From: Candidatus Altimarinota bacterium | GTDB taxonomy: Bacteria; Patescibacteriota; Gracilibacteria; BD1-5; UBA6164 | Direction: 5' to 3' | Assembly: GCA_019454605.1 (NCBI GenBank) | Contig: JACFNZ010000006.1 | Location: forward strand, 1-58,322 | DNA: 58,322 nucleotides | Shown here: positions 15,592 through 54,055 of the stretch, one piece after another | Layout: each line of letters opens with the position of its first letter | Numbering within the stretch: the first letter of the stretch is position 1 | Position numbers and translations under genes: made by a program | Notes under the pieces: generated by a model | Seen by the model: the letters and a program-made list of their open reading frames with translations, nothing else | Database searches by the model: none | Told to the model about the DNA's origin: nothing

Positions 15592-16782
15592 TTATTTTAA
15601 AATTTCTTTTAATTTTATATTATCATAATTTTTTATTAAATCAATAACTTCTAAAATTGAAATTAAAGATTGTTTTAAATTAAGTAAATCTCTAGGACTT
15701 GCTCTATCTAAAGATAACCTATTTAAAATAATTTCTACATCACTAACATAAGATAACTTTTCTCTAACTTTACTTAATAATATCTTATCTTTAAAAAATA
15801 TTTCCACAAAATCTTGTCTTTTTTGTATTTCTTTTATATCATAAAGTGGATTAAGTATAGATGACTTTAAAAGCCTTTTTCCCATCGAAGTTTTTGTGTT
15901 ATTTAAAACTCAAAATAAAGTTCAAATCACTTCACTTCAAGTTAAAAAATTATAAACCAAATCAAGATTTTTTATAGTTTGATTATCAAGTTTTAAATAA
16001 TTTAAATCATTATAAACTCAAATACTTTTTAATATACTTAAAGAGTTTTTTTGATTTAGAGTTAAATAGTTTAATAATAAAGCTCAAGCTTCGATTCATA
16101 AATTTAATTTATCTATTCAAAATCAAGCTAAACTTTTTACTCAAAAATGATTCTTAAGTAATACTTCACTATCTCAAGAATTTTCAAAATAATAAATATT
16201 TAAACTATATTTTTTTTGTAGAGTTTGCTTTAAATCATCAAATCAAAATAATTTTTTATCTAAAATAACTTCTTTAGGATTTAGTTTAAATAATTCTTTT
16301 TCTAAACTTGAAAAATTATCAAATTCAGCTATTTGCCACTTATTTGACAATAAATCTAAAATTGAAAATCAATATTTTTTAGTTTTCTCTAGATAAGTAA
16401 TTGAAATAACTGTATTGTTATCAAAGTTATCAAAATTATCTCACTCTAAATTTAAAGTTGCTGGTGTTACCACTCTTTGAACTTCCCTTTTTACAATTCA
16501 CTTTAGTTTTGGATCTGAAACTTGCTCTACAATAGCTACTTTATATCAAGCATTTACTAAAATTGGTAAATATTTATCTTTAGCATGATATGGAATTCAA
16601 GCTAGTTTTTCAGGATTTAGTGCATTTTTATTTCTTGAGGTAATATTTATTCATAAAACTTTGTGTGCTATTTCAGCATCTTCTCCAAACATTTCATAAA
16701 AATCTCACATACGAAAAAATATAATAGAATCATCATATTCTTTTTTTATATCATAATATTGTGACATTGCTGGAGTTAACAT
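15592..16782 (-). CDS. MutS N-terminal half (mismatch recognition, connector, start of lever)
   Basis: 396 aa against about 850 for MutS. Domain I has FFRMGDFYEMFGEDA with the Phe-x-Glu mismatch wedge and KLAGIPYHAKDKYLPILV. The connector and lever follow, up to LNRLSLDRASPRDLLNLKQS. The frame then stops after LKEILK. The clamp, the ATPase (Walker A GPNMGGKS) and the helix-turn-helix parts are absent, and holA begins 6 bases later. Mismatch repair by this protein alone is impossible from known mechanism. It is either a decayed gene, one part of a split MutS, or a mismatch-binding regulator. Confidence 0.88.
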
Positions 16783-16784
16783 TT

Positions 16785-18623
16785 TTATTTTTTTAATAAG
16801 TATCAATTAATATTTAAGTTCATATTTTCATTTTCGAAATCAAAAGAAATATTTTCAAGTAAAAGTAGATATTTTCAATTTTTTCCAGAAACATCAAAAG
16901 TTAAATTATCTTTTTCAAATTCTGTATTTTTAGTATCTTTATAAGTTTTATCTATTTTTGTTAATACTTCTTCTAAATTTATTTCATCAACTAACTCACT
17001 TCAAGACATTATTTTTAAGATTTTTTTATCTATTTTAATTCATTTATCATCATAATTTCATATTTTATAAATCTTTGTATAATTTTTTAAATCTAGTGGG
17101 AAAAAGTCATCACTTCAAATTAAAGTTATATACAAAAATCAAGATTCTTCTGGTGATATTGGCTCGTAAGATCTAACTTTTAAAGTATCTCCTAAAAAAG
17201 TTATAAATCACCATTTTGGTGGTATTATTTCTTTTGAATTTAAAGATATTTTATTATTTTTTATAAAATCTTTTTTATATTTAATTAAATATTGGTCATA
17301 TAAATCTTTAAAAATAGTTTTTATTTCCCCACAATCATTAAAATTACAAGTATATTCTATTCAATTATAAATTTCTCTTGATAATTCTATATCTATATCT
17401 TCATATTTTGATAGAGGTTTTATTTTTCAATTATTTAAAATATGTGCTTGAATTAAATTTTTTTCAAGTCTATTTAATTGTCTATTTAATGGCATTTTAT
17501 AAACTCACCAAGGTCAAGCAGAAATAATAATTATAAATAAAGTTAAAAAAGATGTTATTATATAAAGATTTTTCTTTTTTGAAATTATTAAATAAAGTGA
17601 AACTATTAAAAGCCAAATTCAAAATACTACTACAAAATATCTATTTGTAGTTAAATCATATTGTCATATTCTCAAAAATATTGCATAAAATAGCATAAAA
17701 AGTTGAGGGGCAACAACAAATGGGAAATATTTTCTAAAATTTTTAATTAATTTGAAATTATCTTCTAAGTATTTTGATAAAATATAAAGTAAATATCAAA
17801 AACTACTAAATACTATAACAAGCCAAGAAACTTCTCACTTTGGCCAATCTTGAAAATTTAAAAATACTTTTAATGTATAAGCATAAAGTATAAAAAAATA
17901 AATATAAATAAAAGGAACTCAAATAAATTTAATTAAAAAATCATATAATTTACTTGTTTTTAGTTTTTCATCATAAATTCAGTTATTTTGTCATATTTGA
18001 AGTAAAAAATAACTAGGAGTAAATAAAGAAAAAACAATTATTGCTAAATCTCAATATATTTTATAGTATTCATAATCTTTTAAATCAAATAAAGTAAAAA
18101 CAGCAAAAACTCAAATGATACAAAGTAAGTAAAATAATCATCAAATAATAGAAGATGAAATAATTAAATAAAGAGTATGTCTAAATTGTAAATCATATTG
18201 AATTTTTAAATCTTTATATGATAAAATATCTCTTAAAAAAGGTGAAATAAATAAAAAAGATATAAATCAAATTAAAGTTAAGATAAAATACATAAAATTA
18301 TCTCAAGAATTTATGTCTAAATCAAAAGTGAAATAAAAAAATATTCAAAAAAGTATTGGAAAAATTTGTGGAATATGATTATTTTTTACTTTACAATTTA
18401 TTTTATTGTATTTTAAAAGATAAAATCATACACTTGCAAAAAAAGTAATTATTAAAGAAGAACTTATTTTTGTTAAAGTATTTATTATTTCATCATTAAA
18501 ATCTCATCTTAAAATTAAGAAATTTATAATAGTTGTAAAGATAATAATCAAAAAAGAAATAATATATTTTTTTAACATATCTTTTATAGACAAAGAAGAT
18601 AAAAAAGAAAATATTTTAATCAT
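16785..18623 (-). CDS. DUF4153-like polytopic membrane protein
   Basis: 612 aa. About twelve hydrophobic helices fill the first two thirds, with the sequence TPSYFLLQIGQNNGIYDEK and the helix VPFIYIYFFILYAYTLKVF, typical of DUF4153 proteins. A soluble C-terminal region of about 180 residues follows (from FLTLFIIIISAGPGGVYKMP onward). Function is unknown. It is the first gene of the mutS-holA-vWA operon, with 2 bases to mutS, and starts near 18623 opposite the promoter of the basic protein. Confidence 0.7.
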
Positions 18624-30331: not shown

Positions 30332-30364
30332 AAAAAAAATGGATTTTAAAAATCCATTTTTTTT
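30332..30364. terminator. Bidirectional terminator clpP / glutaredoxin
   Basis: Arms AAAAAAAATGGATTTT and AAAATCCATTTTTTTT with A- and T-rich flanks. The glutaredoxin stop lies inside it. Confidence 0.8.
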
Positions 30365-30615
30365 AAAACCTCATCTAATTTACCACTATTTTTTAATTTT
30401 TCTAAATCAGTATATCATCCTATCAAATTCTCTTTTTTAACTTCTCAAACAAATATTTGAGGTAAAGTTCTAAGTCAAGACATATTTGCAAGTTTTATAA
30501 TTTCATCTTGTTTTCAAGATAAATCAACTTCTATAAATTCTAGTTTTAAATTTTCAAGCAATATTTTTGCTTTATGACAATAAGAACAAGTATCTTTTGA
30601 GTAAATTGTTATCAT
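30346..30615 (-). CDS. Glutaredoxin-like protein
   Basis: 89 aa thioredoxin-fold oxidoreductase. MITIYSKDTCSYCHKAK has the CxxC (CSYC) active site, then TLPQIFVGEVKKENLIGGY with the cis-Pro and the Gly-Gly glutathione-side loop. It follows the dUTPase-ferredoxin gene by 2 bases on the same strand, so the two redox-linked genes are probably co-expressed. Confidence 0.9.
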
Positions 30616-30617
30616 TT

Positions 30618-31382
30618 TTAATAAAAAGTTTGTAAAATAATCTCTCTATTTGGGTCATGCTCTAAAACTTCTTTATTAAGTCATCAAACACAAGTTAAAA
30701 TTTCTTCTTCTGCTAGAGGTAATCCTGGCTCCATAAGTAAATCTTTTTTTAAAGCCTCTCCCCCTGTTTCTATGGTACACATACAAGCTCAACAAATTCC
30801 ATTTGAACAAGCATAAGGGATATCAATTCAAGCATCTTGAATTTGTCTTAGTAAATTTTCTCAAACTCTAACATCTATCTCTTTTAAAAATACTCAAGAA
30901 CTATCTTTTATAGTTATTTTTTTTGTTTTAATTTCTTGTTTTGTAGTTAAATTTTCTTTAGTTCAAGTTGTTCAAAATCCTCCTCTGTCTTTATTTCACA
31001 TACTTTCTACTACTTCAAAATCAGCTTTTTCAATTTTAACAAGAAGTCCTTGTCATATACGAGTTCCATCTTCAATTATTTGTCTTTGTCATGACATATT
31101 CATATATGGGAATTTTATAGTATCATTATCTCAAGCATAGTCTCGGTCAATAATTCAAACAGAATTTACTTGTATAAGTCAATGTTTTTTATATGTTGAG
31201 CTTCTTGGAACTATTTGTAAAACGTGTCACACTGGCACTTCAACAACTGTTCAAGTTTCAACGAGTTTAAACTCTCCGGGTTCAAAAATATGTTCTCAAA
31301 CACATTTAAAGTCAAATCAACAAGCTCAAGGAGTTTCATAAAAAAGAGGCTCATTATCTGGTGTTTTAATTCTTACTTTCAT
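30618..31382 (-). CDS. dUTPase fused to a C-terminal [2Fe-2S] ferredoxin domain
   Basis: 254 aa in one unbroken frame, checked codon by codon. Residues 1 to ~150 are a trimeric dUTPase: TPGACGFDF (motif 1), VPRSSTYKKHGLI (2), NSVGIIDRDYAGD (3), DGTRIGQGLL (4) and NKDRGGFGTTG (5). Residues ~165-254 are a plant-type ferredoxin with YACSNGICGACMCTIETGG and a fourth Cys in EEILTCVGG. The dUTPase hydrolyses dUTP to dUMP. Why it carries an iron-sulfur cluster is unknown. Flanked by metG upstream and glutaredoxin downstream. Confidence 0.9.
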
Positions 31383-31400: not shown

Positions 31401-32978
31401 TTAAACTTCAAATCTATCATATAAATTAGATCCTTTTTCTAAAATATTAAAAGTTTCTTGTTTATTTTGTAAATTTATTAATCATCAATTTTCTAAAACT
31501 TCTTTATAATCATTCAGTCAAAACTTTTTAAACATTTCTTCCATTTTTTCTGGGAAAAATGGAAATAAAATAAGTCAAACTTGTCTTAATCATTCAGCAA
31601 TAGTGTATAAAATTTCTTTAGTTTCTTCTAATTTTGTTTCATCTTTTATAGTTTGCCAAGGTTCTTTTTTGGTAGTGAAATCATTGAGTTTATCAAGAAA
31701 TTTAAAACTATCATCTAAAACTTGTTTTAAGTTATAATTTTTAAAATTATTATTTGAATCTTTAGTTAATTTTTTAATATCTAAAAATGATACATCTCAA
31801 CTTTTTAATTTTCATCAAATTTTCAAACTTAAAACAACGACTCTATTTACTAAATTTCATAAATTATTTGCAAGTTTTGCATTGTATTGATTTATTGCAT
31901 CTTTTGTGTTAAAATCCCCATCTTGCCCGATATTTATTGAACTCATCATATACAAGGTAAGGAGATCTTTACTATATTTTTCACAAAATTCTACTGGGTC
32001 AATAGCATTTCAAAGAGATTTTGAAATCTTTTGTCAATCAAGAGTAAAATAACCTGTTGTTAGAATTTGTTTTGGCATTTCATATCAAGCTGATTTTAAC
32101 ATTGCTGGCCAAAATACTGCATGAAATCTAATAATATCTTTTGCTACTACATGTAAATTTGCTGGCCAAAACATCATATCATCTCCCCCATTATCTGGAT
32201 ATTTACATAAAGTAATATAATTAAATAAAGCATCAAACCAAACATAAGTAACTTGAGTTTCATCAAAAGGAAGTTTTATACCAAAGGTATTTGATTGTCT
32301 TGAAATTGAAAAATCTTCAAGTCATCTCTCTACAAAGGCAATAACTTCATTAAATCTGTTTTGAGGAACTACAAAATCTGGATTATTTTTATAAAAATCT
32401 TGCAAATATTTTTGGTATTTTGAAAGTCTAAAAAACCAATTTTTTTCTTTAATAATTTGAGGTTCCTTCAAATGATCTGGACAAACTTTTATGATATTTT
32501 CACTCATTTTTACTTTTGGAGAAAATTCAAAAGTTTCATTTGTAGTTTTGTTTAAACAAACAAGATCTTCATCTTTTTTAAATCCCTCACATCCTACACA
32601 ATACATTCATTCATAAACTCACTCATAAATATCTCAAGTGTCAAAGCATTTTTGTAAAACTTCTCTCACCAAATCGTGATGTCTTTTTTCAGTTGTTCTA
32701 ATAAAATCAGTATATCATATACCAAGTCAATCCCAAACATTTTTATGTTTTGAAGCCATCATATCAAGATATTGCATAATTTCCATTCAAGCTTCATTTG
32801 CTTTATCAAGTGCCTTTTGACTATTTTCATCAACTCAAGTTGCAAATTTTACTTTATCTCAAGAGATTTTATGATAAGTAGTTAATATATCACAAATCAA
32901 AGAAGTATAAGCATGTCATATATGTGGGATTCAATTTGTATAGTAAATTGGGGTTGTAGTGTAAAAAGTATTTTTCAT
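31401..32978 (-). CDS. metG: Methionyl-tRNA synthetase
   Basis: 525 aa class I synthetase without the C-terminal tRNA-binding extension of longer forms. YTTTPIYYTNGIPHIGHAYT holds the HIGH motif; the zinc-knuckle insertion has MYCVGCEGFKKDEDL; KMSKS appears as GQKISKSLGN. The start ATG at 32978 gives MKNTFYTTTP. The dUTPase-ferredoxin gene follows 18 bases after the stop. Confidence 0.95.
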
Positions 32979-36737: not shown

Positions 36738-38162
36738 TTATTTTATTATCTTTCTCAATTCGCTAACCAACACTTTTATTTCATCATCATTTTTTTCAAT
36801 ATTTTCAATGATTTCAAGTGGGCTTCTTAATGCTTCTTCTTTCGCTTTATTTGGATTTTTCGCTGATAAATCATAATCTTTTATATCATTTACATTTATA
36901 ATCCAAGAATTTTCTGAAATTTCTCTTTTTTTGAGTAAATTTGGAATTTCTTTTATTTCTTCATAAGTGATAGGTTTATTTTTTGTGAGAGTTCTTCAAA
37001 GATTGATTTCGTAATACCAAATATCTTTCGTGCTTCATTCCCTATCAAAGAAAATCACATTTGTTTTTACTCAGCTGTAAGGCAAAAATACTCAAGCTGG
37101 AAGAGAGATTATACTATGAAGATTATAGTTTTCTAGTAGTTCTTTTTTAATATCCTGAAAAGCATTTCCCGTGTTAAATAGAACTCATTCTGGGATAATA
37201 ATTCAGGCTTTCCCTCAAAGTTTTAGATTTTTATAAATGTGTTGTAAAAATAACATTTCCGTTGCATTCGTTTTGAATGGAAAGTTATTTTGAATAAGTT
37301 CTTTTTCTTTTCATCAAAAAGGAGGATTTGCCAAAATGATGTCATATCTATCTTTTTCTTGAATTTGTCTAATATCTTGAGTTAAAGTATTCTTTTTACT
37401 GATATTTGGGTTATTAATCCCGTGTAAAATCATATTCATCACTCACATAATGTAAGCAAGTCCTGTTTTTTCGTTTCAGAAAAAAGTTTTATTTTTCAAA
37501 AATTCGAGCTCTTTATCATTTTTCTCTTGGCTATTCATATGATTGAAAGCCTCAATCAAGAAACCACAACTTCCCGTTGATGGGTCATAAACAGTTTGTC
37601 CAATTTTTGGGTCGATAGTATCCACCATTATTTTAATAATACTTCTTGGAGTATAAAATTCTCAACTATTTCATCAGTCATTCCCCATTCATTGAAGTAA
37701 ATCTTCATAAATATGAGAAAGTTCAAAAAGGTCTTCTTGTTTTTGAAAATTTAGGTCATCAATGATATCAAGTATTTCTCTTAGTGTATGTCCTGACTCT
37801 ATTCTATTATCAATGAAATGATAGATTTCCCCGATTTTATATTTGATTGAGTGATAATCTTCATTTATATTTCTAAAACTCTTTAAATACGGAAATAACT
37901 CTTTATTTACAAAGTCTTTTAAATCATCTCAGGTAATTTTTCAGTTTTGAAGATGTATCCAGTTTTTCCATCTGAATTTCTCTTCTAAAATGTAATTATA
38001 AGTTTTTCCATCTAAAAAAGCATTATCATTTTCTCTTTGTTCGTAATCATCTAAGAATTTTAAGAATAAAATCCAGCTGATTTGTTCTGTATAGTGCATA
38101 GCACCAGAAATACCATCATCTCTTCTAAGTATGTCTGTAATTCTTGAAATTTGTTGTTTCAT
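36738..38162 (-). CDS. hsdM: Type I restriction-modification methyltransferase subunit HsdM
   Basis: 474 aa N6-adenine methyltransferase subunit. The N-terminal helical domain starts MKQQISRITDILRRDDGISG. The SAM motif is YDPSTGSCGFLIEAF and the catalytic motif IV is IILANPPFGG. With HsdS it methylates the recognition site; with HsdR it restricts. Last gene of the minus-strand run; 3 bases after abiEii. Many glycines are GGN here, unlike the surrounding chromosome, a sign of more recent acquisition. Confidence 0.95.
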
Positions 38163-38165
38163 AGG

Positions 38166-39023
38166 TTATTTCTTAAAAGATAAAATAAATTCATATATTT
38201 CTTCAAAATCAAACGAAAAATCATTATTTAAAACTGGTTTTAGGTCTGTTTGTACTTGCTTTTTTAAATTTTCAAAATTTTCTTCAAGAGTGTATTCATA
38301 ATCTATTTCACTGAGTTTTATTTCAAGTAATTTTTTAAATTCTTTATCGTCAAAATCAAAATTTCAAAATTGTTTTACATACCAAATATCGAAAAAGTCT
38401 CTAATTGCTGGTGTTGTTCTCGTTAAACTTGCTCTTAGTTTTTCAGCTAATGCTTCTTGTAAATTGATACAATTTATAAAATGTGGTTGAAATATATTTT
38501 CTTCTAAAAAAGTATCTTTAAAATTTGATTTTATTTCTCCTGAAAAAGTTGGAAGGTATAATTTATTTTTGAGCGAAATATCTATTTTTATAGTTTGAGG
38601 TGAATTATTTAAAATTGAATTGTATTCAAAAGTAAACATTGCCAGTTTGTAACTATCAAACTTTGTTCTTTCTTCTTTTAAATTTATTCATAAGATTTTT
38701 AAATCTTCTATAAAATTATTTTCATATTCTTTCAATAATGTTTTTCTCGCTCTTGCTCATAAATCAGTATTTAAAACAAAGTCTAAATCTTCACTGAGTC
38801 TGAAATATGGAAAATAGACTTTATTTAAACAAGTTCATCATTTGAAGATTAAATCAGGGTATTTTTCTCAAAATTTTATCAAAATAAGAGTCAGTAAAAA
38901 ATCTTTTTCATATTTATAGATATCAAATTCTTTTTTATTGGAAAGATTTATAATTTTTATAAATTCATCTTTCTTGATATTTTGATAATCTTTTAAAAAA
39001 TCACTTATTTTTTCTATATACAT
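38166..39023 (-). CDS. AbiEii-type nucleotidyltransferase toxin
   Basis: 285 aa. The nucleotidyltransferase core LIFKGGTCLNKVYFPYFRLSE...DLDFVL has the GGT-xnK and R-x-S-x-DLDF signature of AbiEii/MenT toxins. LQEALAEKLRASLTRTTPAIRDFFDIW follows, in the usual position. These enzymes modify tRNA 3' ends or other targets and arrest growth during phage infection. It overlaps the antitoxin gene by 10 bases and sits inside the type I RM locus between hsdS and hsdM. Confidence 0.87.
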
Positions 39024-39598
39024 AATTTTTCTATTTTAGATATTATAGTTTTAGGTGCATATTTTTTCGCCATTTGTAAAAGATTTTCTTTATCAATATT
39101 TTTTGGTAATTCATTAAAGTTTTTTCACTCTTTTAGTAGTTGTATAAATGCTCTCTCTGGAGAAAATACCAAATATGAATTATCTCAAGATTTTTTCGTT
39201 ATAATTCAGTAAAAAAAATTTGGTTTTTGTTTTTTGAAAATAAATTTCGTTTTTCAAATAATTCTATCTCAGGAAATAAGTTTGTTATAAACAGTGTACC
39301 ATTCCACTACTTGTGTAGAAAATCAGTACATATTATACACTCAAAGTCATCCAAAAGCATAATCTTTTCACTGGAAATACAAATCTGCTATTACAAAAGG
39401 GTCTTCAATCTTATTTGAAAGATTATTTATATATATTTGTCATCTTTTTAGTGGAGAAATAAGTCATAACGAGGTTACATCTTTTATTTTATAACTTGGA
39501 GCAAATTTTGATAATAATTTATCTATTTTATCTTTTTCAATAAACTTTTCATCATAAAGTCTCAGTTTATCTCTTATTATTGATATTTGATTATTCAT
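39014..39598 (-). CDS. AbiEi-type antitoxin / transcriptional regulator
   Basis: 194 aa. The segment FAPSYKIKDVTSLGLISPLKR corresponds to the winged-helix region, and the C-terminal part has YLVFSPERAFIQLLKEWKNF and QMAKKYAPKTIISKIEKL, as in AbiEi-family regulators. It probably represses its own operon and neutralises the toxin encoded just downstream. Stop 39014-39016 lies inside the toxin gene's start region. Confidence 0.75.
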
Positions 39599-39668
39599 AA
39601 TATTAAAATTATAAAGTTCTAAGAAGTCAATAATATTATATCTTTTTTAGAACTTTTTACAAATTATT

Positions 39669-40865
39669 CTAATCTTTCACCAATCTTCCCTCAAAAGCAT
39701 CTTTCAATAAACTTTGTTTTAGTTCTTCTAGTTCTTTTAATTGCAATTCATATTTTGTTTTTAGTTCTTTATTTTTTGCAAAAACTTCATCTAAATATGA
39801 GACGATTTCTTTTTGTTTTTGAATATCAAATATAGGAACTTCGACCTCTTTAATTTCTTTTAAATGAAGATTTGGAACTCATACTCACTTTAATCTAGAA
39901 TTAAATTGTTTTTTAGCAGTAGGTGAATTTATAAAATAAAGTAAATATTTTGATAAAATAAAAGACTTTGGTCTTAACAAAGCAAGACTAACATAAATAT
40001 CAAAAATTTCATCTTTATCAACTATTGCTCAAACTCAAGTTGTTCAATTTTTTGCTAATAAAATATCTCATTTTTTAGGAGTTACTCTTTTACTCATTTC
40101 AATATGCTGTTTTTCATCAATATACTTAATATTATTCCAATCAATAAATCAAGAAGTAACATTTTTAGATGATAAAAAAATAACTCATTTTTCAAAGTAA
40201 GTTGGAGTTTGATGAGTTCAATCAGTAATCTTTTCACAAATATCATTCATTTTTCTTACTTCATATTCTCACTCACTAAAAACTTTTTCTAAAACACTTT
40301 TATTTAACTCTTCAATATTTTTTAGATTTTCTTTTGTGAGATTTATGTTTTTATCTATGTTTTCAAATGCTGAGTCTAGTTTTTGGACTATGAGTTTTTG
40401 GGTTGGAAGTGGGGGAAGTGGGATTTCACAATTTTCTAAATCTGAATTTTTTAAATTAAGTATATTAACTCATTGAGAAAAATTAAAAATATAGTTTTTA
40501 TATAAATCTGATTTTAAATAATAAGAAATATAATCTATATTATCATCTGTATTTTTTCTAAACATACTACAAAATGCTCAAAATGAAAAGTTATCTAAAT
40601 TTGAAACTCTTGCATTTTTTCAAACTAAATGTTTACTTCAACTAGACATACAAAAAATAATATCATCTTTTTGTAATATTTTGTCATTTTTTACAAATCA
40701 TCAAGGTAAATATTGTAAATCATCTAAAAACAATCAATCGTTTATATTATTTGCTCTTAGTAAAGTCACACATCATTTTTGGTAACTTTCTAATAAATCT
40801 CACTTATTATAAGTTATTCATCTATTAAAAATTCATATTTCTCAAAGTTTTTTTGTTGGGTACAT
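39669..40865 (-). CDS. hsdS: Type I restriction specificity subunit HsdS
   Basis: 398 aa with two target recognition domains: the first from KKLGEIGIFNRGITYNKGD, the second from VRKMNDICEKITDGTHQTP. Each is followed by a coiled-coil spacer (QKLIVQKLDSAFENIDKNIN; IQKQKEIVSYLDEVFAKNKE). The N-terminus MYPTKKLGEIG is shortened but typical. Nearly all glycines are TGA. It determines the bipartite DNA site of the complex. Confidence 0.93.
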
Positions 40866-40878
40866 AGGTTTATTTATT

Positions 40879-41376
40879 TTAAATTTTAAAAAGAAAAAAT
40901 ACTTTTCTTTCTTTGTTTATTTCTAATATTAATTTTTTAGATATTTTTAAAATTTCATTTTCTCTTGAATGTAGCGTTAAAGGATTTAATTCTAATTCTG
41001 GATTATGTTCTAATTCTATATCTGTGTATTTTCTAAAATCTTTTTCTAAAAATGGAAAATAGATATTTATTAAAACCCAAATTTCTTCTCTTAATTTTTG
41101 TTTTTTATCAGTTTCAAGAAAATATTTATTCATAATATTATTATATTTTTCTAAATCTTTTTCATCTTTTACACCAATACTTTCTATTTCAAAATTATCT
41201 TTTAAATCATCAACTTTTGATAAAATTCATTGATATTCATATAAAGTTTTTAATAATTCTTCTGATTTTTCTTGTAGTTTAAAAAATCTATCTTTTTTTA
41301 AATTGTAATAATACACAATTATTCAAGATAATCCTCATATAAAACCTCAAACAATTGCAATCAATAATTCTTTCAT
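40879..41376 (-). CDS. Membrane-anchored coiled-coil protein, 165 aa
   Basis: Function unknown. One Gly-rich transmembrane helix at the N-terminus (MKELLIAIVGGFIGGLSGII, about 4-24), then a cytosolic helical region (FFKLQEKSEELLKTLYEYQG; ETDKKQKLREEIWVLINIYF). It starts 17 bases after the KAP NTPase gene and ends 13 bases before hsdS, so it belongs to the same transcription unit. It may anchor the neighbouring NTPase at the membrane; this is inference. Confidence 0.7.
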
Positions 41377-41393
41377 ATTTTATCTTTTCTAAA

Positions 41394-42662
41394 TTAAATT
41401 AAATAATCATCAGTAACTCAAAAATAACTTTTAGTATCATCAAAACTATTTGTATAATAAAGAACTTTATCATCAACATTTACTTCTTTATAATTAATAT
41501 TACTTATCCTAAATGGAATTTTATAATTAAAAGTTTTTGGTTTTATTTCTTTTACATCTCAATTGTAATGTTCCTCATAAATACTATTATAAATACTTCA
41601 TCTAATTCTATGATTTTCTTGTATAGCACAATCTAATAAAGCAGAAAATATACTTTCATTTCATCAAATAGTTTTTCTTTTTATCCAATTACTAATATAT
41701 ATTTCTCATTGTTGATTTTTGATATATTTTGCAGTTTCAAATAAAATAGATAATCTCCAATCAATTCATTTAGTATGTTTCTTTAATAAAGCAATATAAT
41801 TCAGATTTGCATTTCTCAATATATGTTTTAATAGTCTCATAGTTATTTGCTCTGAAAATTCTATAAAAATTCATTCTAAAAATGTAGTAATTTGTCATTT
41901 TTTATTTGAGTCTCTTATTATTTCATCAATAAATAATTTTTCTACTAATAAATTTAATTTAACATCTTTTAAAGAAAAATTATAAAAATAATCTAGTGAT
42001 TTTAAATAAGATATTTTTAAACTTTCTTTTTCATAACTTTCTTGTCAAATAGGAACTATAACTATTATTCTTTTTTCTATTTCTATATTTTTTAAAAAGT
42101 GATTTAAAGTTTCTAAAAAATAAATTCAATTATCTCAGGAACGGTCAATATCTTCTAATATAATATAAATATTGTTTTCTTTAACTTGTGATAATAAATT
42201 TAATAAAATATTTTGTAGTTCTATAATCCTTTTAGTTGGGGAAGTTTTTAATAAGTCTGCAAAATTTCATATTCATAATCAAGAACAAAATTGGGTAAGT
42301 TTTTCAACCCAAACAGTAGGATTTTTTCATTCAATTTTCCTTTTAGAGCTTTCTAAATCTTCATTACTTATTTCTTCTGCTATATCTAAAATAAAATTTT
42401 CCCATAAATCCTGTCTTTCAGGATATTTCCAAGCATCAAACTCAAACCAATTAGCATCTTCACCATATTTAGTTTTAATTTGATTTAAAAAGTTGCTTTT
42501 TCAACTTCAAAATCTTCAAATAAATCAAACTAATGATGAAATTTCTATATTATCAATAAAAGTAGAAAATCTATCAATTTCAACTGATAAATCAAGTAAA
42601 TTATCTATTCTAGAATTTTCTTCTAAAAGTTTTTTATCTTTTATAAATCATTGTGAAAACAT
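41394..42662 (-). CDS. KAP-family P-loop NTPase
   Basis: 422 aa. Walker A LVGFIGRFGSGKSNFLNQI, then the family's FEFDAWKYPERQDLWENFIL, and Walker B NIYIILEDIDRSGDNGIYF. KAP NTPases often sit at membranes and occur in phage-exclusion systems such as PifA. This copy lacks the four transmembrane insertions of classical KAP proteins, but a separate membrane protein gene follows. The STAND-like NTPase gene precedes it by 14 bases. C-terminal region (about 330-422) unrecognised. Confidence 0.85.
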
Positions 42663-42676
42663 AATTATTTTTAAAG

Positions 42677-44872
42677 TTAATTGGCTAATAATTTATTTGG
42701 TGTATAATCAAATCAAAGAAGCTTAGATAGTTGTTGACGAAGTCTAAAATCAATATCGTTATGAGTATTTAAATAAAATTGAATAAAATATGATAAACTA
42801 CGAATAGCCCAAGTATTTTTTTCATCACTATATTTTTTATGTAAATCTTTAACATCCTCTATAGTAATTTTTCAAAAATTGATATTAAACAATAAATTTA
42901 ATAATTCATAAGATGCATATGGATTATTTTTTGTAATATCTTTTTGTAAAAGTAATAATTTATCAATTCATACAGATTGAAAAATTTTAAATAAAATTCA
43001 ATGAATTGTTCACATAGCCATAATTTGAACAAATTTTTCAATATTTTTTCTTTTTTCATCTGAACTTAAATATTTGTTTTTTAATTCTTTTTCTTTCTCA
43101 ATAATATCAATCTTTCTCTCAATTGAGTCAAAAAATTCTTGACTTTTAATCGTTCAAAGTAGAAAAGTCATTAATCTCAATCATAAATTTTCAACTTCAA
43201 GTAAAAGTTCCTTAACCTTTTCTTTTTCTAAACTTCCTGCTCTATTTTTTAAAATTTGTCATAAAACTTCAATTATTTTAAAAGATTTATTTAATTCCAT
43301 CAATTCATCACTTTTTTCGATTTCTTCATCATCTAATTCTTTTATATTTTTTTCTTGTTCATCTTTTAATTTTCTTTCATTAATTCTATTTTCTCAAGTT
43401 GACTTTTTTTCAATAATTGTAGTAGGTAATTCTCTTATAATATCAGTCATAAAATTAGTTTCTTCAGTTGAAAGTTTTGAAATAGAATGATTTTCAAAAG
43501 ATACCATACAATGCATTTGTATTTCATCTAAAAGATTACTATCATCAGTATGATGAATTGTGAATACTAATATATGTGAACTAGACTTCTTATAAATAGA
43601 TAAACATAATTTTTCAATATCATTATTTTCATCTTTTTTGTCTGCTAAATATTTTCAAACAAAATAATAATAAATATATTGAAATTCAAATTTTACATTT
43701 TCACTTATTTTTATAATTGGATATTCTTTATTTTCTAGTCTAGATAATATTGAACTATTAAGAGGTATATATTTAATTCAATAATCTGCTTTTATTTGAT
43801 TATACTGCTCTAAAGTAATATTTTCACTTCAAGTTTTGTTTAATGCAAAGATTTTATATGCTAAAAATGTCAAATAATTATAACAATCTTGAATTTCAGT
43901 AGGATTAATTCATTTTTTAATTAATTGTGATGTAATTAAAGCATTATAGCAGTGTCAATATGATGTTATTTGTAGATTTGTGGGAGATAAATTTTCAAAG
44001 GTCTGTATTATTGATAATATATAAAAAGGAGTTTTAGGAACTATATGATTTTTAGTTATTATATCATCTATTTTATTTTCAATAATATCAAAATCTTTAT
44101 TATATATTTCTTCCTCATCTCAATAATCTGTTTTAAACCAATTTGATATTAAATTATGTTGTTTTGTATAGTTAAAAAACTTTATTGAATAGACATCAAT
44201 ATCAGCAAAATTTTTATTATCTCTAAAATAAAGCATATATTCTTCATCTAAAACCAAAAGTATTACTTTAGAAAAAAATTGTTTAGAATATTCTAAAAAT
44301 GAGTTTGAGATTTTATGATGATAATTATCAATTATCAATATTTTTTTATTATCATTTGATATAAAACTATCGTAATCTGAATTATACTGTTCTTCAAAAG
44401 ATTTTTTTAAGATTTTTTCATATTTATTAGTTCAATTAGATATTGTATCTCAATCTATAATTAAAGTATAGATATTTTTTTGAAAACTATCTATGAAAAT
44501 TTTCCTTCATATACTTGTTTTTCAAGAAAGTTCAATTCATTTAATAAAAGATACTTTATTTGTAAAATCTAAAAAAATATCTTTATTTCAATCAATATCT
44601 TCTTCTTTTCAATCTTTAGATATAAAAGAGAAATTAGGATAAACAAAAGTTTTCTCAAGAGTTAGCTCTTTTATTGTTGAAACAAAATTAACTTTATTAA
44701 TTATATCAATATATTCTTGTTTTGGTTGTATTCAAATAGTATTAGCTCAGTCTATTTTTTTAGTTTCCGAGGTATTCGCATAAATAGAAATATTATAAGT
44801 ATTTCATACAGAATTTGAACTTCACTCTACATTAGTTGAATTTCAATCAACTATTTTCTTTTTTTCAAACAT
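42677..44872 (-). CDS. STAND/NACHT-like NTPase with N-terminal amyloid-like motif
   Basis: 731 aa. Residues ~4-27 carry the motif KIVDGNSTNVEGSSNSVGN, shared with the adjacent 79-aa membrane protein. The NTPase has a Walker A-like FIKGIELSGKTSIGRKIF (about 100-118) and Walker B-like KKILIIDNYHHK, then FNYTKQHNLISNGFK in the winged-helix linker position and FEFQYIYYYFVGKYLADKK, similar to the end of NACHT modules. A helical C-terminal sensor-like region of about 300 residues follows. This is the layout of a bacterial NLR-like sensor signalling by amyloid templating; the function is inferred. Confidence 0.7.
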
Positions 44873-44894
44873 ATTTTTAGAATAATATGATAAA

Positions 44895-45134
44895 TTATTT
44901 ATTAATTATATTTCAAACTGAATTTTTATTTCACTCAATATTAACTGCTCATCAAGAAACTATTTTTATATTAGACTTCTGAGAGTCACTAAATTTATTT
45001 TTAAGGTAAAAATATAATATTATCAATAAAATAATAATTATTATAAAATATACATAAATTGGTATTGTTTTAAAAAAAGTAACCACCTTTTCTTGATTAT
45101 CAATAAGTAATAACAAATCTTTTACTATTTCCAT
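44895..45134 (-). CDS. Small membrane protein with C-terminal amyloid-like motif (candidate effector)
   Basis: 79 aa. An N-terminal helix of 20 residues, a transmembrane helix at about 25-44 (PIYVYFIIIIILLIILYFYL), a short basic linker, and the C-terminal motif KIVSGGAVNIEGNKNSVGN at 57-75. The motif matches the N-terminus of the next gene's product at about 14 of 23 positions. Short membrane proteins with a terminal amyloid motif act as cell-killing effectors in known bacterial NLR pairs. It starts 5 bases after hsdR and ends 22 bases before the NTPase gene. Confidence 0.75.
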
Positions 45135-45139
45135 AAAAA

Positions 45140-47464
45140 CTATTTAACATATAAACTCTTCTGTAGCTCATAATAAGCATTCTTAAGCTCCTGCATTCAC
45201 CCGAAAGTTTCTGCAATTTCCCTTGGTTGACCTTGATTAAACAAAGCAATCTTACTTGCTAGTCCATCTTTTCTAAATTCTAAAATTCCATTTTTTACAT
45301 AAAGCCCCAGCAAAAACTCTAAAAATTCTTTTGCTTTTAAACTTTGGTATTTTTCAACCGTTTCTTCTCAATACTGAGACCTTTCAGCTCTAAACTTAAT
45401 ATCACTGTTAAAAGAAATATGAGCCAAAATATCAAAAATATCAGATTTTTCAGCTTCAAACATCTTTTTTAAATCTTCGAATTGCTCACTATCGAGTCAA
45501 ATGTTCGCTAAATTGTGAAGTAATTCTTCTCTGGTTTCAGGATTAGACCATAACATCCTGAGTTGATGCTCATCCTGATAAATACTCGGCAAATCTCCAA
45601 TAATTCTTTTTAAGAAATCATTTGAATTTAAATGCTTTCCAGTTGTCGGGTCAAGATATCTTGTTTCAATATCAATAACTTTTACTTCTCTATTTGGTGC
45701 TAGTTTTACCACTAATTTTTCTTTTTTCTCAAAATCATTTTCTTTGGTATCAGTTGGAAAATCTTTTTTGGTATTTGGTTTGTATTCTTCTTTTTTTGGT
45801 TCTATTTCATCCGATAAATCTTCTTCTGGTCATCAGTCCCACAACTCATCACTAAAATCATTGGTAGCTCAAACAAAATCATAAATAGTAAAATAATCCT
45901 TTCAGTCAAAAAGTCTTGTTCATCTTCAAACAATTTGCTTGTATTCAACAATACTTCAAATATTTCTTACTAAAACGATGTTTCTTACATTGAGTGCATC
46001 CACTCAAGTAGTCAGCATTTGAGAGCTCGTTAAAATTACTGGAATATCTTTGTCATTATCCTGAAATCTTTCGAGATATTTTCTTCCTATTTCTCCTTCA
46101 TTACTGGTTACACGAACACAATAATCTGGGTCTTTTACTTCCTTATATTTATTTATACTATCCCTAATTCTCAGTGCGTGACTTTGGTCTACACAGAAAA
46201 TAATGGTTTTATCCATTTTATTTATTTGTTGTAATATCGTTTGAGCTATCAAATCCGACCTTTCATCGATTATAATCTCTTTTTCCATATCTTTTGTATA
46301 ATATACTTCCTTTTTTATTTCCCCAGAAACTACCTTATCTCAACTATTTAAAACCAGTTCATCTATATTAAGTTTAATTCTTTTTATCTTAAATGGTGTC
46401 AAAAATCCGTCATCTATTCCAGTTTTTAGAGAATATTCATATACTGGATTTCAAAAATACTTATAAGTATCGACATTATCATTTCTTTTTGGTGTAGCTG
46501 TTAATCAAATATGCACAGCACTATCAAAATATCTTAAAATTTCTGCCCAGTTTCCATCTTCTCTGGCTCATCATCTATGACATTCATCAATTATAATAGC
46601 ATCAAAAAAATCCCTATCATATCTGTTGTAATAGGCTTCTAGTGTTTCATCTGGGTTTTCCTCATCTACTCATCCTGCAAGTGCCTGATAAATAGCAAAA
46701 AATATATTTGCATTCGTTGGAACTTTCCCTCATCTTTTTTTTATTTCCGTTCCGTTGATTTTGATGATATCTTTTTCCAAAGGATTAAAAGTATTCATCG
46801 CCTGGTCTACGAGTATATTTCTATCTGCTAGAAATAAAATTCTTGGTCTTCTTACTCATATACCATCTTTCGACCATCTTGCATTAAATAATTTATACAC
46901 CGTTTGAAATGCAATAACGGTTTTACCGGTTCAGGTTGCAAGAGTTAGTAAAATCCTATTTTTTCAGTCTCAAATCGACTCCATTATTTTATTTATAGCA
47001 ATCTCTTGATAATATCTTGGTTTTCTTTCAGATAGATAAAATGGTTCTTGTAATAAAGTTTCTTTTGTATGATTTATTTCAGAAAATACTTTTTTATAGA
47101 GTTCTTCAGGAGTCGGATAATTATCAATATAATCCCCTTTTCCAATTTTTAGGTCAAATTCATAGGTTCTTTTTCAGTTTGAAGAGTAAACAAATCTGAG
47201 ATTTAATATCTTTCAGTATTCTTTTACTTGTTCTAATCCTTCTGTTGGTTCCAAATCTTTTTTCTTTGCTTCAATAATAGCGAGTTTTACTCATTTATAG
47301 GTTAAAACATAATCAGCAAATTTTTGTTTTCCTCTTTTTCATCAAAGCCCTATTCTTCCGTCAGTAAAAGAATGTTCTCTGATAATATTGATATCATTCC
47401 AACCATTATTTTTTAATTGTGGGTCTATATAATTTGCTCTTGTATCGCTTTCTGAATATGACAT
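45140..47464 (-). CDS. hsdR: Type I restriction endonuclease subunit HsdR
   Basis: 774 aa. N-terminal PD-(D/E)XK nuclease with FADYVLTYKGVKLAIIEAKK, then an SF2 translocase: Walker A LLTLATGTGKTVIAFQ, DECH box AIIIDECHRGGAREDG and LTATPKRND. The size and C-terminal part (YVKNGILEFRKDGLASKIAL) match EcoEI-like HsdR. It is the first gene of the long minus-strand run that continues through the embedded NTPase genes to hsdM. Confidence 0.95.
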
Positions 47465-52606: not shown

Positions 52607-52630
52607 AAAAACTCCAAATGGAGTTTTTTT
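52605..52630. terminator. Terminator between trhO and the reductase gene
   Basis: AAAAAAACTCC / GGAGTTTTTTT, loop AAAT. Confidence 0.85.
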
Positions 52631-53480
52631 AATTCAAATAATCTTCAAAATAAATATTATTATATCATTGTTTTATTAATACTTCTTTTGTGTCTTTAAG
52701 TAAAGATGGATTTCAACAAATATAAAACTCTGTATTTTCAGAATATTTTATATTATCTAAATTTATTCTTCAAAAATTATAACCTTCTAACTCTTCTCTT
52801 GATAAATATACTTTAAATTCTAAGTTTTTAATATTTTTTAATTTATCTATATAAAATAAATCTTTTTTAGTTCTTACTCAAAAATAAAGTGTTATTTTTT
52901 CTTCATTATTTAATGAGTTTATCATATTAAAAATAGGAGCTAGTCAAGTTCAAGAAGCAATAAAAATTTTTTGATTTTTTGATTTTTTTAATAAAAAATC
53001 ACCTGAAATATGAGTAAATCATAAATTATCTCATACTCTAGAATTTTTTAAAACTAAAGATCATCTTCAATCCCCTAATTTTATTAAAAATGTAAAAATA
53101 TTATTTTCTTTAGAAACTATTGAGTAAGTTCTTTGAATTATTCATTTTTCATCATTAAATACAAAATTTACAAATTGACCATTTTCATAATCTAAATCTT
53201 CCCCTAAATCCACTTTTAATTCTATAACATCATTAGTTAGATGATTTTTTTCTACTATTAATGAATTTTTAACTAAAACTCTTCTTTTTACAATTCTAAA
53301 AGCTGATTTTTTAGCTCAACAAACTGGACAAACCCAATTTTCTGGAATATCTTCAAATCTAGTTCAAGGAGCAATTCATCACTCAAGATCTCAAATATTT
53401 TCATCATAAATATATCAACATTTAGAACAAATCCATTGTGCAAAAAAACTAGATTCATCAAAGTTTTTTATACTTTTTTT
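52629..53480 (-). CDS. Rubredoxin-FNR reductase frame with no start codon of its own
   Basis: About 283 codons. Rubredoxin comes first: WICSKCGYIYDENIGD...[24 protein letters not shown] with both CxxC pairs. An FNR-like reductase follows: FAD-binding QRTYSIVSKE, NAD-binding IASGTGLAPIFNMI, and YFGVRTKKDLFY and YICGNPSLLKDTKEV. No ATG, GTG or TTG occurs between the upstream in-frame TAA (53481) and the first rubredoxin Cys. The preceding membrane gene ends on an A9 run 10 bases away, and a -1 shift there joins the two frames. It is thus probably the C-terminal part of one membrane-bound electron-transfer protein. Confidence 0.85.
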
Positions 53481-54055
53481 TTAGATTTAAAATAAGCTAA
53501 AATCCATAGAATTAACCATAAAATAAATATAGTTAAAGGCACAAAACTTAACATACTTGGATTTAAAAATAAGTGTATTGTAACTGTTACCATAAGTAAA
53601 TATGTAAGTCTTTGAGTTAGTTTCCACTTTTTTCAAAGTTTTTGTACAGCTAAACTATTTGAAGTTAAAAATATAGGAACTAAAACTATTGCTGAAATAA
53701 TTCACCAAAAAATAAATCAAGTATAATCACTTACAAAAGGTAAATTAACTATTTCTCACCAAGATTTATTTGGAGTAAATCATTTAAATTGTAAAACTTT
53801 TAAAACTCAATGTATAATAGCAAAAATAGCCATTAACCAACCTAAATATCTTCTATTTTCATTTCAAAATTGAAATAAATCCACTTTTGGAAATAAATCT
53901 TTTAATGGTCTAACATACATTACTAGTACTAAAAATAATACTGCTGATAATCAAAATGGAACTACATAGTCTCACTTATGATTTGTTTTTAAAAATATTA
54001 CTCAAAGTAATAATAAAATAATTACTCAAGATACATATCTTATGATTTTATTCAT
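53468..54055 (-). CDS. Ferric-reductase-like (MsrQ/YedZ-type) haem membrane protein
   Basis: 195 aa, six hydrophobic helices. RRYLGGLMAIFAIIHGVL and LTQRLTYLLMVTVTIHLFL carry the likely haem-ligand His residues, and FLTSNSLAVQKLGKKGKLTQ is the family's loop. Such domains pass electrons across the membrane through haem. The zero-frame product ends KSKKKV-stop on the run of nine A (minus strand; 53474-53482). Shifting -1 there continues into the rubredoxin-FNR frame. Confidence 0.82.

Follow-up and report, generated by a model that had tools for sequence, protein, structure and literature searches.

The window (the whole stretch of DNA analysed, 58,322 nucleotides) contains a single open reading frame that begins as a dUTPase and ends as a plant-type [2Fe-2S] ferredoxin. 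The question raised by this locus is whether the frame represents a genuine gene fusion and, if so, what is gained by joining a nucleotide hydrolase to an iron-sulphur protein. The gene belongs to contig C9, part of a 1.0-Mb genome, and its frame is open with TGA translated as glycine (NCBI code 25); 19 of its 254 codons are TGA, and under table 11 the locus has no such open frame, the longest frame being short. The features of the locus, listed in the direction of transcription, are as follows.

31401 to 32978, minus strand: metG, methionyl-tRNA synthetase, the upstream neighbour (gene context)
30618 to 31382, minus strand: fused dUTPase-ferredoxin gene, 254 amino acids plus TAA stop, code 25
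30957 to 31382, minus strand: dUTPase domain, residues 1–142 (Pfam, alignment, fold match)
31305 to 31328, minus strand: dUTPase motif I, GACGFDFK, residues 19–26 (F23 and D24 invariant in alignment A3)
31176 to 31208, minus strand: dUTPase motif II, PRSSTYKKHGL, residues 59–69 (alignment)
31125 to 31163, minus strand: dUTPase motif III, SVGIIDRDYAGDN, residues 74–86, with the catalytic-type Asp79 (alignment)
31038 to 31070, minus strand: dUTPase motif IV, DGTRIGQGLLV, residues 105–115 (alignment)
30963 to 30989, minus strand: dUTPase motif V, DRGGFGTTG, residues 132–140, just ahead of the linker (alignment)
30924 to 30956, minus strand: linker, ENLTTKQEIKT, residues 143–153 (11 residues), where the nearest relative has the dut stop and a spacer
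30621 to 30923, minus strand: plant-type [2Fe-2S] ferredoxin domain, residues 154–254 (Pfam, alignment, fold match)
30690 to 30809, minus strand: cluster ligands C192, C197, C200 and C231, CX4CX2CX30C (alignment)
30346 to 30615, minus strand: glutaredoxin (CSYC), ATG at 30615, 2 bases past the stop of the fused gene (30618–30620)

The first-pass annotation had proposed an in-frame fusion at 30618–31382, with all five dUTPase motifs, a complete ferredoxin cluster motif, no stop or frameshift, and a glutaredoxin gene 2 bases downstream. The span proved exact; it may be added that the gene runs on the minus strand and that code 25 alone keeps it open. The other particulars were likewise recovered, both Pfam domains scoring above cut-off within one frame of 254 codons that runs without stop or frameshift across the roughly 100 ferredoxin codons. 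Judged from the sequence, two full domains sharing one frame cannot be put down to chance. A profile search of the genome returned one match to PF00692 and one to PF00111, in both cases the fused gene; within the sensitivity of that search, the organism seems to have no other dUTPase and no other plant-type ferredoxin.

Each domain was aligned with its relatives separately (A2, A3). The dUTPase half, of the trimeric type, was complete: the five motifs stand in the correct order at columns conserved among relatives, and free-standing dUTPase relatives terminate at the position equal to residue 142. Pfam dUTPase (PF00692) matched residues 15–139 (E 1.6e-17, 63.9 bits, cut-off 22); the NCBIfam dUTPase models gave 90 bits, short of their cut-offs of 102–103. 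The best PDB matches were Bacillus subtilis YncF and YosS (sequence E 4e-24), YosS also being the best fold match of the predicted structure (Z 17.7); in the model built with its own relatives, most blocks had a pLDDT of 60–90. The five motifs, including a GDND stretch past motif III, are common to YncF, YosS and the fused protein, but the chains of YncF and YosS end directly past motif V and carry no ferredoxin domain. The dUTPase half is predicted to hydrolyse dUTP and to assemble as a trimer.

In the ferredoxin half the four ligand cysteines occupy columns conserved in relatives, and other invariant ferredoxin residues are kept too; the last ligand gap is X30, against about 29 expected for plant-type ferredoxins. 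Pfam Fer2 (PF00111) matched residues 167–232 (E 1.8e-10, 41 bits, cut-off 21), whereas the free ferredoxin of the nearest relative, G424 of the same genus, scored 34 bits. PDB sequence matches were plant and algal ferredoxins, and the predicted structure matched plant-type ferredoxins in fold (Z 12.4, rmsd 1.8, 88 aligned), the fold-match lists being domain-limited so that a family missing there says nothing. The model built with its own relatives had a pLDDT of mostly about 90, dropping to 74 in a single block at the cluster loop. The fused domain thus resembles plant-type Fer2 ferredoxins in fold (Z about 12), ligand spacing (CX4CX2CX30C) and length (about 100 residues), and differs from them in standing C-terminal to a dUTPase and in having no start codon of its own. 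Fer2 is found as an attached module in benzoate dioxygenase reductase (1krh), toluene monooxygenase reductase (4wqm) and pectocins M1 and M2 as well, but there it is joined to a flavin reductase or to a bacteriocin domain rather than to a nucleotide hydrolase. The ferredoxin half most likely binds a [2Fe-2S] cluster and would serve in one-electron transfer.

How the two halves came together can be read from the congener G424, which has the gene order metG-orf-dut(TAA)-14 nt-fdx(ATG)-2 nt-grx, in which dut and fdx are two genes. In the fused gene the position of the dut TAA reads GAA and that of the fdx start reads AAA, and the 14-base spacer corresponds to 33 in-frame bases (junction peptide GTKENLTTKQEIKTKKITIK); both the stop and the start at the dut/fdx junction have been lost. 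Codons 143–200 of the fused frame contain no ATG, GTG or TTG, and the first ATG, codon 201, falls past three of the four cluster ligands, so the ferredoxin could not be produced separately from a standard start. The linker was of low confidence in the structure models. Since an unfused counterpart exists within the same genus, adjacency, loss of the stop and loss of the start can be followed directly as the steps of this fusion.

Other relatives place the junction in a wider gene order. In five of them (G403, G401, G412, G405, G400) metG is followed directly by fdx, with dut absent between the two; the genus of the window has dut placed between metG and fdx. G416 has the order metG-fdx-dcd-rnhA-thyA (gene identities read from the sequences), many relatives have metG-fdx-galU with no grx beside fdx, and fdx adjoins grx in G391, G392 and G398, the pair recurring in another genus. 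In another congener, G425, dut is present and no Fer2/fdx was detected.

The distribution of the fusion was determined in 696 distinct Patescibacteria genomes (380 from the phylum, 48 from the family, 77 from the order and 353 from the class), by a search that could miss a fusion with a very divergent ferredoxin. A full-length match was obtained in one genome only, that of the window. No record in phages and plasmids covered 80% of the fused query by tblastn; assembled genome contigs and viral contigs contained dUTPases that were unfused or distant, and no second fusion; and, leaving aside L109, whose tail reads as N, the inspected dUTPase frames that carry long extensions have no Fer2 tail. 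A literature search, in which few subscription journals were covered, found no published DUT-Fer2 fusion. The earlier statement that no such fusion is known therefore stands for the literature searched, the rest of the 696 genomes, phages, plasmids and viral contigs, while the conservation in related genomes that the annotation had asked about is absent. It had also been held that separate genes in the relatives would count against the fusion; dut and fdx are indeed separate there, which does not refute the fusion but restricts it to one lineage.

Fusions of dUTPase to another partner were encountered elsewhere in the phylum: at four loci (L107:656-1747, L108:41-1135, L112:522-1718, L113:239-1258) Pfam placed a dUTPase in frame with a domain of the dCMP/cytidine-deaminase type, three times in the order deaminase-dUTPase and once as dUTPase-deaminase. 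These deaminase-dUTPase proteins may be enzymes of pyrimidine deoxynucleotide metabolism that feed dUMP from a single chain. They resemble the dUTPase-ferredoxin protein in that a dUTPase is joined in frame to a protein of the same pathway, and differ in that the partner is of the deaminase type, in either order, rather than an iron-sulphur protein. Their occurrence indicates that dut fusions with pathway partners recur.

The reading preferred here, with a probability of about 0.6, is a recent, genuine fusion of adjacent operon genes whose domains are tethered yet carry out ordinary, separate jobs in deoxynucleotide supply. The dut gene would have entered between metG and fdx to give an ancestral metG-dut-fdx-grx operon; later, the stop of dut and the start of fdx would have been lost and the spacer turned into the 11-residue linker. 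Each dUTPase chain would then bear a C-terminal ferredoxin, and a trimer would bear three. The dUTPase half would supply thymidylate synthase with dUMP made from dUTP, and the ferredoxin half would transfer single electrons by means of its [2Fe-2S] cluster. The main effect of the fusion would be a 1:1 ratio and co-location of the two domains, and the simplest mechanism would be that of independent modules on a short tether. The fusion is known from a single genome and is probably an ordinary operon fusion; as far as known, the domain pairing is new and the process, stop-loss fusion, familiar.

That the joined frame arose in sequencing or assembly is scarcely credible, although the fusion rests on one assembly, a single draft genome in 11 contigs. 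The congener has the identical gene order, which would not result from a chimeric join, and to mimic a fusion an error must both delete stop and start and hold the frame across the 33-nt linker; a single sequencing error that removed the stop would leave the ferredoxin startless. Shared gene order together with the loss of both signals is a strong argument against an artefact, and the fusion is almost certainly real. A real fusion may still be of little use: since one genome only has it, it could be a dispensable accident, in which drift fixed the stop loss in an already reduced genome and the ferredoxin tail is tolerated with little or no function. This is unlikely, though it would fit a singleton among 696 genomes and a congener (G425) without detected Fer2. 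It would also fit the faster change of the ferredoxin domain, which has about 20–21 lineage-specific substitutions vs 3–7 in G424 (p 0.013 to 0.001, five outgroups). The corresponding counts for the lineage of the window and G424 were 17:9 in dut and 45:29 in metG, mostly not significant; as both lean the same way, the speed-up of the ferredoxin may partly reflect a generally faster lineage, and it is as compatible with relaxed constraint as with adaptation. Decay is countered by the retention of all four ligands along with the remaining invariant residues, by a Fer2 score above both the cut-off and that of the free congener protein, and by a confidently modelled ferredoxin with no stop or frameshift in its roughly 100 codons.

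Two further proposals assign a function to the tether itself. A redox-regulated dUTPase, the cluster of which would sense oxygen or electron supply and adjust the activity of the enzyme, for instance through the position of motif V, is improbable. Motif V of trimeric dUTPases is the arm that closes over a neighbouring active site, and the ferredoxin is attached directly behind it by a short linker that could influence the arm; against this, there is no relative with the fusion or with signs of co-evolution, the usual dUTPase residues are unchanged, and the sequence comparisons and models made lend the coupling no support. We know of no dUTPase that needs redox input. Also improbable is a broader scheme, whereby the C-terminal ferredoxin would tie dUTP removal to electron supply and one tethered assembly would coordinate dUMP production with activation of class I ribonucleotide reductase. 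The first-pass annotation had suggested that nucleotide-pool hygiene could be coupled to redox or oxygen state; for this no direct support was obtained, the fusion being a singleton with a short linker of low confidence and all dUTPase motifs kept. Its other suggestion, delivery of the cluster to a partner such as the glutaredoxin, likewise found no direct support. A relay in which the fused ferredoxin would reduce the product of the adjacent glutaredoxin gene, or load it, is improbable: grx lies 2 bases downstream both here and in G424, and fdx and grx are neighbours in G391, G392 and G398, but the fdx of many relatives (metG-fdx-galU) has no grx alongside, and the usual reductant of glutaredoxins is glutathione or a dedicated reductase. 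The recurrence of the pair in another genus makes a link between fdx and grx plausible without the dUTPase.

The genome offers a candidate partner for the ferredoxin. It encodes a class I ribonucleotide reductase (nrdA-nrdB), the R2 protein of which keeps the D...EXXH ligands and the radical-Tyr position, as well as ThyA (thymidylate synthase) and three FNR-type reductases; NrdI was not detected in the genome. In E. coli, the ferredoxin YfaE keeps the R2 cofactor active (Wu et al. 2007, as cited in PMC8463856). The present case is similar in that a small [2Fe-2S] ferredoxin occurs in a genome with a class I ribonucleotide reductase and undetected NrdI, and by analogy the fused ferredoxin might, tentatively, serve the reductase as YfaE does. 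It is dissimilar in its score with the YfaE model (NF007985; 26 bits against a cut-off of 75, the match being weak for all 16 ferredoxins of the set), in lying away from nrdB (nrdAB is on contig C6, so the YfaE-type adjacency is lacking), and in that many related reductase-bearing genomes have no such ferredoxin. The nrdAB genes, the R2 tyrosine, ThyA, the FNR-type reductases and the undetected NrdI permit a YfaE-like role but do not prove it, and the link to ribonucleotide reductase is at best a weak one.

R2 was present in 41 of the 47 genomes of the family and, by Pfam, a Fer2 protein in 18, so most genomes with this reductase manage without this ferredoxin, and the phyletic pattern does not support a tie between the two. 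No NrdI was detected in these genomes. Just upstream of nrdA-nrdB in the congener G424, a gene for a small ferredoxin of the [4Fe-4S] type (L068:8984-9217, minus strand) was seen by eye. A pyruvate-type oxidoreductase was rejected as the partner of the ferredoxin in this genome, which gave no match to POR_N.

Should the pairing reflect a shared function, it would point to deoxynucleotide supply as the process served by the Fer2 ferredoxins of these recoded bacteria, which are poorly understood. Similar fusions may go unnoticed, since a gene in which TGA encodes glycine is fragmented by standard annotation.

Several other features of the window, all on the minus strand, were noted. Two frames appeared truncated by eye: a DNA polymerase I-like frame (1218–2525, 435 amino acids) stops short of the polymerase domain, and a MutS-like frame (15592–16806, 404 amino acids) comprises the N-terminal half, the ATPase half seeming to be missing and another gene following directly. 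A Type I restriction-modification locus (36738–47464; hsdM, hsdS and hsdR, by eye) resembles a defence island; two P-loop NTPase genes and a nucleotidyltransferase pair of the AbiEii kind lie between its subunits. At 52629–54055, an FNR-type NAD-binding protein adjoins a ferric-reductase-like membrane protein (PF00175, PF01794), possibly an MsrQ-type pair.
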